In this document: positions 10,082 to 32,575 of the stretch, piece after piece | Layout: every line of letters begins with the position of its first letter | How positions within the stretch are numbered: position 1 is the first letter of the stretch | DNA from: Lobosporangium transversale | Lineage: Eukaryota > Mortierellomycota > Mortierellomycetes > Mortierellales > Mortierellaceae | Reading direction: 5' to 3' | NCBI RefSeq assembly: GCF_002105155.1 | Contig: NW_019028999.1 | Location: 310,001-374,000 of the forward strand | DNA length: 64,000 nucleotides | Notes under the pieces: model-generated | The model's input: only the letters and a program-made list of their open reading frames with translations | Databases searched by the model: none | What the model was told of the DNA's origin: nothing | Made by a program: the position numbers and the translations under genes

Positions 10082-10741
10082 ATGGCTTCATTCGCAGCAA
10101 GTGTATCATCCTCAGAGCTGGCTAGTCCTTCAGCGGCGGTCAGCTCTGCCCCGGTATCTTCAACTTCGGCTGTGCAGCTACCATTGTCGGACTTGCCCAT
10201 GGGTTGGCAACAACGTCACACATTAAAGACCAATCGAACCCGTACTGTGTCTTGGCCGGGATTCCCAGCTGCATCAAAATCCGTTTTGAAACCACTACCT
10301 GCGCACCATCGGTATAGGCATAGTGGGCTATCAGCACCCCTATTACTACCATTAAATGTGAGAAATACTTTTCGTCTTATGGGGATTCTCTCGGTGGTTT
10401 CCTCGCTGATGGCCCTTCCCTGGCACTCATATGGACATACGAACTACAAACAGGGGTTTGGGCGAGGGACCGAGGTAACAACATCCACAGACTTTCACAT
10501 CGAGTCACTCGAAATATGTCACACATTCACAAACATCTGATGACCAAGAAGAGTTGACATCCTAATTTTTTTTCTTCTTTACATTATACATCATATCGAT
10601 ACTCTCGAACGTGTCACAATACATGGATATTTTAGTTCTTGACTATTACAGGCATGGTAACCTTACTCTGTCTTTGCCTGGGTATTGTAGGTGATCACTT
10701 TCAGACAAAAAGTAAGTCGTATTTTTACATGTATTAAAATA

Positions 10742-10755
10742 TAGTCCGTCCCATT
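10742..10755 (+). repeat. left terminal inverted repeat of the Fanzor element
   Basis: The sequence is TAGTCCGTCCCATT, preceded by TA. It matches the opposite end in inverted orientation at 12 of 14 positions. The CCGTCCC-type tip is reminiscent of Tc1/mariner-superfamily ends. Confidence 0.6.
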
Positions 10756-10895
10756 AAAAAACGAGACATCCCATCTAGTGTTAAAAGAAGAAGTGTATTA
10801 GAACAAAGAAATAAAAAGTATTATCAAGCCAATACTTACAATTTTTTAAAACGAAGGCCTTTCTGGACCTAGTCATGTTTGTAGTAGATTGTGTC
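10756..10895 (-). other. non-coding stretch 3' of the Fanzor gene; candidate guide-RNA region
   Basis: About 140 nt lie between the Fanzor stop codon and the left terminal repeat. In Fanzor and TnpB systems the guide RNA (omega RNA) is transcribed from the 3' end of the nuclease gene through the element end, with the guide supplied by the flank. This stretch is in the right place and orientation. I could not verify a conserved fold, so this is positional inference. Confidence 0.3.
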
Positions 10896-12918
10896 CTACT
10901 GTTGTTGCCGGCTTGTCTCTCCCCCTCCTCCTGGACCCAGCAAAGGTCCTTTCGGTGGTCTTGATCCCTCTACTCCTCCTCCTCCTTCATCTGAAAATTT
11001 CCTTTTTGTGGGTCTGCTACTACTACCACCACTGCCACCACTGCCACCACTACCTCCACCGCCGCCACTACCGCTAGAAGCTTGGCCTTGAGTTCCTCCG
11101 TCCGGCGGCATATATTTTGCAGGTCGTTTTTGCTCTCTTATCTGCGACTCACAGACCCTTGCGATGTTCTCAGCACCAACAGCATCTCGATCAAAGTATG
11201 CTTTACAATTTCGACAGTACTTGGATCGAAAAGGAACATTCTCCAATATACTGTCACAGTGAGGCCGTGGACACTTGGCAGATGTGTAGTACTCATGACA
11301 ACCTACAATGGAGTAGTCTAGAGATTTTGCCTGTTCGAGCCAGATTTAATACTCGTTAAAAAAAAGACTCAAAAATTAAATGTCATTGATCAAGGGAATT
11401 TTTTTTTTTTTTTTTTTTTACCTTTTCAACAAGCTTCTTCATCAATATCCCATGCTTCGATACTTGTCCTCGGTTTGTCTTGAATGATCCTAGTCCAATA
11501 CAGATCACCGCATTCGTATTGGCATCTCTTCTTCTTCCATTGCTTCCGCCCGCAAGCTTCAGAATTGCCTTGATCACATAATCAACGCATCCGTTCTGTG
11601 CTTTTCTAATATCCCAGCTATTCCGAACAAACCACCCGTCATTATAGAAATCGACAAGCGCCCTATATATAGTCTCCCTATTGTCGTCACTGATCCCAGA
11701 TCCACTGCTACTACTGGCCTCAACTCCACTGCTACTACTGGCCCCAACCCCACTACCAGAGAAACTACCTCCAGTACTTGATGGAGCTTGATTTAGCGGC
11801 AAGCTCATATAAGCGAAATACTGTGTTAAAGTAGGCCTTGAGAATGACGGAATATTGCTTTCAATCTCTGTAATTCCTCTTCTAAGCTTTCGCCTCTCTA
11901 GCTCGCCCTGAAACTTCTTGGATGGTTTGTAAAGGTACGCTCTAGAAATCCGGAGGATCTCACGTTCGTTAGGTTTCCTTGGATCCAACTTTGCAATTGT
12001 CATCGAGTACCTCTCGCCTGGATCGATCCCAATGATAATGGTACTTTCGGAGGGAGGGCATGCTGCCTGGGTGTCATATTTAACTTCTACATTCTCGAGG
12101 AGACGGGATCTCTACCTCTTTTTTGCTTCGATGTGTCATAGGCAAGAAGTGTTAGGGCAAGGCCGTTTGTAAAGAACGATGTCCGTAGTTTCCTTCTAGG
12201 GCCATCATCAGATTGCAGTCCAACGTCCTTGTATCCTTTCAAGGAAAACAGCTCCTGCAACAATATCCCCTTGTAGTTAAGGATCTTGTCCTCTGCAGCC
12301 CCCTTGGTACTCATGTTTAGTCCCAACAATTGGACTATTTCCTCTCGAACTGTTGGGTTAGACCATAATATATCCGGGAGACAGGCTTCCGTTAAGCAGA
12401 GAGACCGAGGCGAGAAAGCAGACGTAGGGAAATACAGATATTTTTTGGCAGTTGCATTTTGCTCAAAAAAGAATTGGATGGAACTTCTTCCATCGCCTGG
12501 AATATCTATGTCAAACTAGACATTATATTGAAGAAATGATTAGGAACATTTCTATAAACATATTATAAGGTAACCTCAAAATATTATAATATATATCATA
12601 TTTACCTGCGCATTCCGATAGTGAGACCTTAGCGCTGCTTGAACAGGGACCATGACCATCCGAGACGACTTGCCGATCACCAAATCGGGATAGATCTGGT
12701 TTAAAGGACCAAGCCCTGTCTTTGCATAGAAGTATTCGTATGCTTTGAGCTGGGACGGCTTGGCTACGTTCCCTTCGCCTTTTTTCTTCACTTCCCTGCT
12801 ATACCTAGATAATGGACTCATCACTCCGTGATACAACAACGCAGCAAGGCCGTAAATAAAGCCCCTGCTATCAAGAACTTCATCTAGGAGTTGTGGGAGA
12901 CCAGCTGGATTGGATGGC
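10896..12918 (-). CDS. Fanzor (eukaryotic TnpB-like RNA-guided nuclease), N-terminus unresolved
   Basis: RuvC-family nuclease related to TnpB/Cas12. Exons as read: 12918-12606 (5' limit uncertain), 12515-12116, 12086-11422 and 11330-10896, about 600 residues. RuvC-I is IIIGIDPGERYSM near 12030-11995. A Fanzor-type IGLGSF block precedes RuvC-II, whose glutamate lies in GCHEYYTSAKCP. A zinc finger (CPRPHC, then YCRNC) leads into RuvC-III, YFDRDAVGAENIAR. A Ser/Gly-rich insert follows RuvC-I, and the tail is Gly/Ser-rich with a basic, NLS-like RPTKRKF. The RuvC-I block is in a different frame from the preceding exon; a 29-nt GT-AG intron (12115-12087) restores the frame, otherwise this is a frameshift. 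No start codon was found, so upstream exons are missing from my model. Confidence 0.86.
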
Positions 12919-13540
12919 CTAGTAATCTCTTTATTTCTATGCTTGGTCTAGATGGTGTTTTTTTATGGGGAGGACTATTTAGACAACATGTAGACCCCAC
13001 AAATCTTAATCAAAATAAATTGGTTTGGTGGCATTGTTAAAAACATCTTTGCTTAAGGGACAGAAAGATAGACACAATCAGGAAAAGGCAGGACAAAGAG
13101 TGTCAACAAGATTGACAAGAGAAAGTAGAGTCAAATAACCTTGACTACAAACAGCGCCATAGAATGTCAAAAGAAAAGATGGGAGCTTTATAGGTGAGCT
13201 TACAAACTGAGTTACCGGAAGACAAATGCTTGTTGTGAAAAGGGGAAAAAGATAAATGGCAAGGTGAACTGCAGGTGAAGAATAAGACATGTGGGGGAAC
13301 TGAAGACTTTATTAAGAAGGAAGTTTCTTTGGCTTCTATACTCGGTAGTTTCTAGGTGAGGCGGACCCGCCTATGACTACAAAGGCTTTGCGCAAAGATT
13401 AAGCTGGTTCGACAGATTAGTGGATACAAAATAAACCGAAGTTAATTTTAATGACCAGTCACACCACTTGCAATAACAAGCGAGTCAATTGGCTGCCAAT
13501 ACATTTAAGAGTATTCAAAAAATATAAGGGATCGCGACCA

Positions 13541-13554
13541 AATGGAACGGGCTA
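13541..13554 (-). repeat. right terminal inverted repeat of the Fanzor element
   Basis: The plus strand reads AATGGAACGGGCTA, followed by TA. It is the inverted partner of 10742-10755 with two mismatches. Confidence 0.6.
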
Positions 13555-14200
13555 TACTGTACCGGTATGATGCAATAACTGGGCGAAGCAATTGTGCTGG
13601 AAGTACCATCGGAGCTTTACAAACTAAAAACAGCCCCTTGTCGTGTTTTACCACTCTGTTTTAGATTGACTGCTGTGTTGGCCTTATGTATTGGTATTAT
13701 GCCCTGAGTGATCCATTCGCCATATTCGCTGATGGCATTCGCGTGTATGTCTCATTGAGTTCCTCTTACTATTGTGTTGTTGCTTTTATTATTGCTGATT
13801 TCTTTCTCTGCAAAGAAAAGTCCTTCGCAATATCAACATGTAATAACCTCAATTCCGTTCATGATCAATAGCCTTCCTTTTTGGCTTGATATCCAATTGC
13901 ATGGCCTCCCATTTGTGTTCGTTTTTGTCGAAATGTTTTTTTATTCCGATTTTCTTGTGATCAACCATTACGCCGGCCTCTCTACTTATTTTTGTTTCAG
14001 CTCTCCTATCTTGGGTGGTCCAGCTTTTGTGCTTAGATGGACAATGGTCATTGTTTTTTCAATATACACAGTATACATATACACCATTGCTTCTTCCTCA
14101 CTCACTCACTCACTCTTCTTTCTTTCTTACTTTTAATAACTCCTTTTCTCTCAACACTTTTTATGCCAATCTGATTTCATTAGCCCTATCCTATGCTTGA

Positions 14201-14589: not shown

Positions 14590-16001
14590 TCATGCACCCA
14601 ACCGTTGCACTCGCTCGATTAGCTGAGTGACCCTTGCGTCAACCAGCTCAATATTCTTTTTGATCGCAGCGTCGTTTTCAGTCAGACTTCCTTGCAGCTA
14701 AAGTATGTTTATACATTGGTAGCACCAATTAAAAAATTGAATGTTCATATAAAACGAAGAGTGAACAGAGAAAAGCTTGCAGGATTCTTTACCTTAGCCG
14801 AGACAATATCCAGGCTCTTAAGTTCTTCACTAATTTTTGATTGTTCATTCGACATCATCTTGATGGATTCTGAAAAGATGGCTGCTTCTGTGTGTAGGCC
14901 CTTGAGTCCCTTTAGTCTTGTTACCAAAATTGGTGCTAGAGATACCAAAGGATCAATCTTGTCCACCAGTTCAAATAAAGTATTTATCTATAGAATCATT
15001 TTTTTTTCTCATTAGCGATTACAGCCATAGACAGAAGTGAATCTAAGATCCGTTGCATGCCCATATCATCCCATACCTTAGTCTCAGTTTCAGTGCTGAT
15101 TCCACTAGCTGACGACTCTTTAGCCTGAAGTTCTTGAACGCGTTCCATTTCAGCAACTACGGCTTTCAAGCGACGTGATAGTTGTTCCAATTGGCGCGGC
15201 TGAACAAGAATCCCTACATGCTGCTCAAGCTTCTCAAGAGTCCCCACTAATGATGCCTATGCAAAAATTGAAAATGACCAAAAGAATTAAAAGCGAGGAA
15301 AGTGGACTATAGATTCGTATGGTAATGATCAACCATAAAATGAGGAAGCGCGGAGGGGAGAACATCAAAATTGATTACTCACCCCAGATTGCATAGGAGT
15401 TGTCCCAACAGCTTTTTCAAGAGCAGCAAGTCGGTCAGCAAGCTCGGCAGTTTTTGTCACGGTATGCAACCTAGCATTTTCAGGGCTATAGTACAGCTCA
15501 TATGTCACAGTCTATAACACCCATAAGAACGGTAAATCATTAGAAGACGGAGGAATGTGCAGTATTTGCTTTTAATACTATACATATGGGACATGGCATG
15601 CTATCCAAACTCTTTTTCACTCCAACTTTTTTTTTCTTCTAATACCTTGTCATCTGAAGGAGCGGTCTTTTGGTCTGCAATTCCCTCTTTATCAACAGTA
15701 TTAACTGTGGTTGAAGAGACTTTCAAGGCCTGCAACTGCTGCAGCAACCGTTTACCAGCATCTGTTTGTTTGATCAAGCCTTCGCTCGAAAGAATCCCCG
15801 AGGCAGCTCCTTCACCCAATGTTTGACCAACCTCTGCCAAATCATGCTCCAATGACTTGACATGCGAAAGTAGGTCCTTGTGTGAAATCTCTCCGCCCAC
15901 CAAGTCTGCTCCTTGCTATGTTGCCAAATAATAAAATAAACATATAAATATAAAAAGAGCTGCCTTGTTTATTTTGACATGTGCTAATGAATCCTCATAC
16001 T

Positions 16002-27535: not shown

Positions 27536-28338
27536 CACTGCCACACCCACCTATACATACAGGAATAGATTTGCATAATGCTTCCAGTGCCGCAGAACCA
27601 CCTTCAGCAGGCTCCTCAGTAAGTGAATCGTCAGCAAAGCCAGCAGGAAAGCGCTGGATGAATGCTATCCGTCACTCTTTGCTCCCCAAAGATAAAGATC
27701 CCAAGAAGGAAGACAAAGATGGTAAAGGTAACCAGGGTATACATCATGAGGCGGTAGTCACTCCATCACCCCAAATGCAATTTACACCCGGACAGGCTCA
27801 ATTTTCTCCTCTGGGTCAGTATGGTGTTCAGCAGATTCAGCCACAGCCCCAAATCCAACCTCAAATCCAACCCCAGTATGTGCAAGGACAAGTCGCAGTC
27901 TCGTCACCCTATAGTCTCAATCAGCCCTTGAACCCTATCTCCAGCGCTCAGGCATCTGCTGCAGCAATTGCAACATCTCTTCACAATCGTCAGGATTCAT
28001 TCCAGAGCAACCCTTCCACACCCCAAATCCGACAGCAATCACATCCTTATCTACCCCAACAGGAACAGAGCCAACAACAGAGTCATCAACAGGCTCATCA
28101 ACAGGTTCAACAGCAGGTTCAACAGCAGGTTCAACAGCAGATTCCACAGGGTCAACAGCAGGGTCAGCAGCAGAGCCAACACCAGATTCCACAGCAAGGT
28201 CAACACCAGATTCCACAGCAGGATCAACAGCAGATTCCACAACAGGGTCAGCAACACGGTCAACGTCAGCCCCTGCAGCCCCTGCAGCAACATCAACAAC
28301 CCTTCCAAGCCCAACAGCCAGGACAGCAGCAATCATAC

Positions 28339-28421
<83 letters not shown>

Positions 28422-29298
28422 GCAATCGCACCATGGCCCCTTGCAGGTCATCACGGCGTTGACTTCGGAAAGTAACCCATCAGGATCTATGGCTGCCCAG
28501 ACAACCCGGGACAGACATACTAAGCATTTGTCTAACCTTTCCAACACTTCATTTAATGGAACTTCGCTGAAGCCTGAAACGCACGAGGCTGCCTCTGCCG
28601 CCTCTGCAGCCTCTGCAGCAATCAAGGCTGCACGTCTGTCGACCTCATCCTCGCCTGTAGCTTCTCAAAACGCTAGAATGGAAGGTCCAACCCTCGGTCC
28701 CTATCAGACACCAACGCAGCCTCAGCAGCAGCCGATGGTCCAGCAGCAAGAGAGCCAACAACCACCTCCATCACCTGTATCAGATGCCGGCAGCCATATC
28801 TCTATCATCTCTGAATCTCGTAGTATTCAGGTTATTGCTCGTGCCCAAGCCATGTTTGACTTTGCAGGCGAAGACGAGGGCGATTTGCCCTTCAAGGTTG
28901 GCGATATTATCAACGTCATTGAGTACCGTAAGTGCCTTTCGCTTGGAAGCCATGCTCTGCTGCAGTAAAGTTTAATTGTGCACTATTTCTAGCGTACTTA
29001 GCATTGTTTTATTTTATTTCACTATACCCGTAGTAAATGCGGATTGGTGGCGTGGTATTCTGAGGAAGAATATTGGAATTTTCCCTACGGCATATGTTCA
29101 GCTCTTGTAAGTACGATTATCTATCACATAAATTACCAACAAGTTTATAGTCTAAGCTAAGCATACTAATCAAAGTTTGGTATAATTATTAAACTTCTTT
29201 GGTAATTAGGAAACCTCCTACTAACGGCCAGTATCCGGCTATCAATGTCTCTGTCCGTCAGTCCATAATTGGCCCATTATCTCCTAGTGATGGCGCCC

Positions 29299-30101: not shown

Positions 30102-32575
<2,474 letters not shown>

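Follow-up and report, generated by a model that had tools for sequence, protein, structure and literature searches.

Whether a Fanzor gene in a fungal genome has been adapted to its host or is the remainder of a mobile element is the question raised by a locus of Lobosporangium transversale. This locus lies on the minus strand of a stretch of 64,000 nucleotides (contig NW_019028999.1, positions 310,001 to 374,000; here called the window, whose first letter is position 1). An initial annotation had described 10896–12918 as an intact, intron-containing gene for Fanzor, a eukaryotic TnpB-like RNA-guided nuclease, adapted to a eukaryotic host. Judged by its sequence, the window element is a dead copy, with internal deletions, of a transposon that has terminal inverted repeats (TIRs) and is present many times in the genome. 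Taken alone, this relic is ordinary and the interest lies in its family. The unusual feature of the fuller copies, missed by the initial annotation, is the fusion of Fanzor to an N-terminal nuclease of the FEN1/EXO1 family.

The relationship to Fanzor and TnpB itself was recognized correctly. The minus strand of 10896–12923 displays IIIGIDPG, IGLGSF, GCHEYYTSAKCP, CPRPHC/YCRNC and DRDAVGAENIAR, and hence RuvC-I, RuvC-II, the zinc finger and RuvC-III in the order of the family. A profile match, on which the family assignment had been made to depend, was found in the last exon, where PF07282 (TnpB/Cas12f zinc-ribbon domain) scores 29.0 bits against a cut-off of 26.3 on the frame 10896–11345 (E = 1.2e-6). 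A chance order of the motifs is ruled out by this match and by the many copies. According to PMC10711439, the signature of Fanzor is a DPG in RuvC-I together with a glutamate at an alternative place; the window contains both, as GIDPG and HEYYTSAKCP. With the window exon as query, phmmer matched chiefly Gly/Ser linkers in the PDB, and the TnpB-like protein 9b0l appeared at an E-value of 0.92; the protein P0003 alone gave a similar outcome. The two introns are confirmed as well, since GT..AG boundaries at 12605–12516 and 11421–11331 agree with those of the sister copies.

The claim of an intact gene did not survive the comparison with these sister copies. Near ~12922/12923 a deletion of 3,033 bp in comparison to the copies L010 and L016, and of 3,046 bp in comparison to L018, has taken the N-terminal nuclease domain, intron 1 and, at the beginning of exon 2, the start of Fanzor. 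A second deletion at ~12112 measures approximately 300, 300 and 301 bp against these same three copies. Here the frame is lost: a direct translation of exon 3 ends with KRGRDPVSSRM followed by a stop, and RuvC-I lies in another frame. What is left are an exon 2 remnant without its original start (12606–12923, Fanzor N-terminal region), the frame-shifted exon 3 (11422–12515, REC/WED to RuvC, 1,094 bases vs. 1,374 in L010) with the RuvC-I motif IIIGIDPGERYS and its DPG at approximately 12010–12040, and exon 4 (10896–11330). The latter contains the alternative RuvC-II glutamate, the zinc finger, RuvC-III (DRDAVGAENIA) and a Gly/Ser-rich tail. The motifs do lie inside the range first annotated, but the element with its TA flanks is broader and spans 10740–13556 on the minus strand, with TIR ends at 10742 and 13554 that are common to many copies. 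Its left TIR, TAGCCCGTTCCATTTG, occupies 13539–13554 with GTA outside, a candidate target-adjacent motif (TAM) plus target-site duplication (TSD), and its right TIR, AATGGGACGGACTA, occupies 10742–10755 and is followed by TA. Over 21 copies, i.e., 20 fetched 10-kb loci and the window copy, the upstream nuclease domain is whole or nearly whole in 10, a stub in two and absent from nine, the window among them.

In the fuller copies, one spliced gene of ~1,220 codons joins a FEN1/EXO1-like nuclease via a lysine-rich linker to Fanzor. That this architecture exists in several fungal genera and is carried by TIR elements in L. transversale appears almost certain. In the 42.7-Mb genome of this fungus at least 146 places match the last exon; 22 of them, that of the window included, form a close set (≥94% identity across 139 or more of 149 residues). 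The N-terminal nuclease domain is matched at 104 places or more. With 66 of these 104 places and 106 of the 146 Fanzor C-terminus places entered, a Fanzor C-terminus follows the nuclease domain within 8 kb on the same strand in 58 of the 66 cases; any other arrangement was seen in five. Protein searches point in the same direction, since both domains are present in 12 of 27 proteins by our own cut-offs, with sources including Podila, Benniella, Mortierella antarctica, M. alpina and Mortierella sp. GBAus27b. Open fusion proteins are recorded for fungi other than L. transversale. The remaining proteins are in part marked partial and in part models that lack one domain or start within it. All named records stem from Lobosporangium, Benniella, Podila, Mortierella, Dissophora and Gamsiella, all genera of the Mortierellales; the search reaches only relatives with shared short words and does not imply absence outside these fungi. 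In viral contigs, none of 18 pattern matches was confirmed as a relative. Furthermore, the trees of the nuclease and Fanzor domains, built from 13 proteins, agree on seven of ten splits.

The closest listed folds to the predicted structure of the N-terminal domain are EXO1, FEN1, XPG, Rad2 and GEN1, many of them DNA-bound, at ~16% identity, which places it in the Rad2/XPG fold. Seven acidic active-site residues and a basic K/R pair, located by the FEN1 numbering, are all present in 11 of 13 aligned proteins. In P0022 two of the acids fall in a gap, and in P0012 the K/R differs beside a stretch missing from the model. One fusion of Mortierella alpina (P0010) has an extra stretch ahead of the nuclease domain (residues 1–182), which looks BRCT-like by eye only and has no Pfam match.

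Within the young family, the ratio of non-synonymous to synonymous polymorphism (pN/pS) is 0.43 over 10 copies of the nuclease domain and 0.52 over 21 copies of the conserved exon 4 part, both sets being free of stops, and 0.58 over 16 copies of exon 3. A second Fanzor family, 31% identical in the nuclease domain, contains the parts in the same order, and its linker and REC exon show a pN/pS of 0.56 (three copies). An antisense remnant resembling this second family (...FANGLVLNPLAYDT...) lies as a nested relic within the first-family 5' part of L016, at ~1660–1900 on the minus strand of that locus. The last exon is enlarged in L022, L024 and L026 (675–690 bases vs. 423–438 elsewhere), where part of the Gly/Ser-rich tail was matched repeatedly.

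The vehicle of the fusion is a TIR element whose two ends are unequal (TAGCCCGTTCCATTTG / TAGTCCGTCCCATT). Exact ends were found at 21 places for the 5' sequence TAGCCCGTTCCATTTG and at 26 places for the 3' sequence CGTTTTTTAATGGGACGGACTA, and reversed controls gave none. A TA stands at both sides; on the left the T is present in 25 of 25 flanks and the A in 23 of 25, on the right the T in 27 of 29 and the A in 24 of 29. In its TIRs and its TA target-site duplication the element conforms to the Tc1/mariner type. A DDE transposase of its own was not seen among the open reading frames (ORFs) of L016 and L018. Since a candidate is present in the related element L032 (G000:C37:189700-197050), the fusion element would be at most non-autonomous. 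L032 is a 6.98-kb TIR element with equal TIRs, identical over at least 160 bp, TA at both sides and a DDE-type ORF of 621 amino acids. It resembles the fusion element in the TIR start TAGCCCGTTyCATTTGG (44 bp at ~91% identity) and the TA flank, and it differs by its long equal TIRs and the 621-amino-acid ORF from the short unequal TIRs of the fusion element, in which a transposase was not seen. L032 is a possible autonomous partner of the fusion element. Another of its ORFs has a weak HSDR_N match (E = 0.0019). Miniature inverted-repeat transposable elements (MITEs) of ~200 bp (L103–L105 and others) share the left TIR with the fusion element, and 110 places carry the TIR pattern with one mismatch or none, most of those listed being of the TTTCATTTG sub-type.

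Beyond the TA, the flanks carry a one-sided motif. The base preceding the TA is G in 23 of 25 distinct left flanks and the next base outwards is A in 18 of the 25, a count that leaves out L050, which has one TIR mismatch and also reads AGTA. The right flanks read in the same sense show this G in five of 29 (Fisher p = 2e-8 for left vs. right). The related TIR family, represented by 40 of the listed TIR-pattern places, taken in listing order with some skipped, and by L032, has G before TA in 12 of 41 flanks (Fisher p = 5e-7 vs. the left flanks of the Fanzor family). Duplicated flanks were counted once, and neither group includes two ends of this control family that lie in L017 and L018. In the second Fanzor family, C precedes the TA in 11 of 13 distinct left flanks and the complementary G is found in two of nine right flanks (p = 0.007; a by-eye count covering 15 of 22 left and 10 of 35 right ends). 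At L017 the left flank lies within a MITE of the related TIR family, and because three uninterrupted MITEs read GGTA there, the G preceding the TA probably predates the insertion. For this one site, these insertion-free copies speak against the G being part of the element. Among 17 joined sites searched for clean empty sites, no uninterrupted copy was found, and only L017, in its left half, belongs to a repeat with other occurrences. TAM-dependent retention would leave one-sided motifs that differ between the families, as they do here; the main rival is an orientation bias of the transposase. The known Fanzor TAMs given in PMC11423790 are CATA, TTAA and ATN.

A candidate guide RNA (reRNA) end lies at 10740–10895 on the minus strand of the window. 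Downstream of the stop codon, 19 copies share a conserved block of ~60 bases, a length-variable AT-rich stretch and a conserved end holding the TIR; in most copies the AT-rich stretch starts with GTAAGT and finishes with AG, as an intron would. If the 3' end is joined without this stretch, a hairpin of TIR and TSD is predicted (z = −2.16, −3.00 and −2.55, obtained with three spliced forms of two copies), while the unspliced 3' end folds no better than shuffled sequences (z = −0.83). The AT-rich stretch diverges by 6.1%, compared with 0.5% for intron 2 and 1.3% for intron 1. The stretch as a whole is thus no better conserved than the introns of the coding part, which argues against a strong constraint on the spacer and leaves a guide RNA unsupported beyond the two end blocks. 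A search of Rfam gave a single match far below the gathering score. The location of TIR and TSD within the scaffold of Fanzor1 was predicted earlier, as stated in PMC10711439.

Starting from the conserved fusion, the fold of its nuclease, the TIR/TA structure and the one-sided G-TA or C-TA flanks, the overall explanation that we find on balance probable is a dead copy of a fusion TIR transposon, which would have been mobilized in trans and retained by RNA-guided copy-back. Here, a Tc1/mariner-type DDE transposase of the related TA-using TIR elements would move the fusion element. The 3' end of the transcript, with the conserved block and the TIR/TSD hairpin, would form the scaffold of the guide RNA, and the guide itself would be the right-hand flank. 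Excision would leave a resealed empty site consisting of (A)GTA and the guide match, where Fanzor could read (A)GTA as the TAM and cut. The fused FEN1/EXO1-like domain would then trim a 5' flap or resect the 5' ends to 3' single strands, and repair templated by a sister or homologous copy still containing the element would retain it and might allow it to spread. The copy-back step by itself falls somewhat short of an even chance. Still more tentatively, a lineage of Fanzors in Mortierella-like fungi may have become a self-contained cut-and-resect machine, a eukaryotic homing system that is guided by RNA and processes the ends by itself, with a TAM that would have diverged between families into (A)GTA and (A)CTA.

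Several observations weigh against this explanation. Of three copies spliced over their full length, none has an uninterrupted frame: L010 has one stop at codon 767, and L016 and L026 are frame-shifted. Stops occur in five of the 16 copies of exon 3, and the nuclease domain of the second family has a pN/pS of 0.69, computed from three copies. The Pfam XPG models stay below their cut-offs (XPG_I 13.0–16.0 bits vs. 24.9, XPG_I_2 17.5 vs. 24.2), and the claim is therefore one of family fold and active site, for a divergent relative that Pfam does not catch. The position corresponding to E160 of FEN1 is an Asp in the fusion nuclease domain. In the Fanzor part, the TDG position in the WED domain of Fanzor1 reads TNG in L010 and others and CNG in P0004. 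The candidate transposase of L032 is below the Pfam cut-offs (HTH_Tnp_Tc3_2, E = 0.009; DDE_3, E = 0.095) and has no sequence match in the PDB. At L017 the other half of the MITE is gone, which leaves no clean empty site. Finally, left and right TIRs differ, so that an orientation-biased transposase could also yield a one-sided motif.

This last point leads to a serious competitor, less probable than not, in which the fusion is still real and G-TA and C-TA reflect the target preference of a transposase that holds unlike TIRs in a fixed orientation. The TIRs are indeed unlike in both Fanzor families, and Tc1/mariner-type transposases can favor extended TA sites. However, with G in 12 of 41 flanks, the related TIR family that has the same TIR start falls short of the 55% (binomial p = 0.0009) that the same one-sided target would give with insertion in either orientation, a comparison in which element ends are not independent and the transposase may differ. 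The two Fanzor families also show different bases at this position. The existence of the fused gene itself is hardly at stake: two separate proteins joined by a gene-model artefact would explain why some public L. transversale models (P0007, P0001) contain one part only, but this is very improbable in view of the fused models on record in Podila, Benniella and several Mortierella, of P0002, which spans the exon 1/exon 2 splice, and of the frame kept across intron 1 in L010. For an intact, host-adapted gene in the window, where every motif is visible, practically no chance is left, since the two deletions, the frameshift and the absent N-terminus refute it unless cryptic splicing restores the frame.

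The role of the N-terminal domain could also be a different one. It might serve transposition, trimming transposon ends or gap-repair intermediates uncoupled from RNA-guided cutting. Flap or gap trimming comes after integration by a DDE transposase, the domain sits in a TIR element, and the ORFs of L016 and L018 showed no transposase. We nevertheless regard this role as unlikely, given that the domain forms a single polypeptide with Fanzor in 12 proteins and that seven of ten splits are common to both domain trees. Alternatively, the domain may act on RNA and mature the 5' end of the guide. Rad2/FEN1 domains fall in the wider PIN-like fold, and the public record of the homologue P0007 calls it PIN domain-like; the closest listed folds, many of them DNA-bound, speak against this, and it appears improbable.

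The nearest known systems are Fanzor1 proteins (SpuFz1, GtFz1, PpFz1), which share with the fusion the RuvC with DPG and alternative glutamate as well as the zinc finger ahead of RuvC-III. Also similar is the carrier, a TIR transposon with TSD, with TIR and TSD inside the predicted guide scaffold (PMC10711439), and SpuFz1 (8gkh) is matched by the fusion profile with an E-value of 0.019. The fusion differs by its N-terminal FEN1/EXO1-family nuclease, acidic and lysine-rich linkers and ~1,200 amino acids, and by TNG or CNG in place of the reported TDG. The DPG and the HEYYTSAKCP-type glutamate are alike in most relatives, with exceptions such as P0023 (VDLG) and P0022 (IEPG). With TnpB of IS200/IS605 and IS607 the fusion shares PF07282, found in the C-terminal part of 16 of 18 members tested, and weak C-terminal matches to NF040570 (guided_TnpB) below its cut-off; NCBIfam overall gave sub-threshold matches only. 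In contrast to TnpB, the glutamate is at the alternative and not the canonical place, and introns, a eukaryotic TIR element and an extra nuclease domain are present. From FEN1, EXO1, XPG and GEN1 the N-terminal domain is set apart by its low identity, its encoding by a transposon and its joining to an RNA-guided nuclease. A FEN1/EXO1–Fanzor fusion was not found in the literature searched, whose coverage was mostly without subscription papers, so that an earlier mention is possible. In the same literature no joint mention of Fanzor with XPG, with the PIN domain or with Lobosporangium was found, and the listed entries combining Fanzor with FEN1 or flap were, by title, editing reviews or methods. 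The words "XPG" and "flap" are absent from the available main text of the Fanzor papers PMC3627910, PMC10432273, PMC10711439 and PMC11423790.

Where nature has joined an RNA-guided nuclease and a structure-specific 5' nuclease in one conserved protein, a role in directing the repair of the cut suggests itself, and such a protein could suggest a natural single-chain editor that both cuts and resects. It also offers a test object, with copies by the dozen, two families and a TAM predicted for each, and the flanks of the copies make the TAM prediction testable.

In the window, the relic sits ~1 kb downstream of a dynamitin C-terminus on the minus strand (PF04912, E = 1.3e-15; ~14590–14987, with a stop near 14590 by eye). 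Further away, CAACAG-type tandem repeats are located at 28102–28425 and a perfect (ATG)26 run at 32448–32525.
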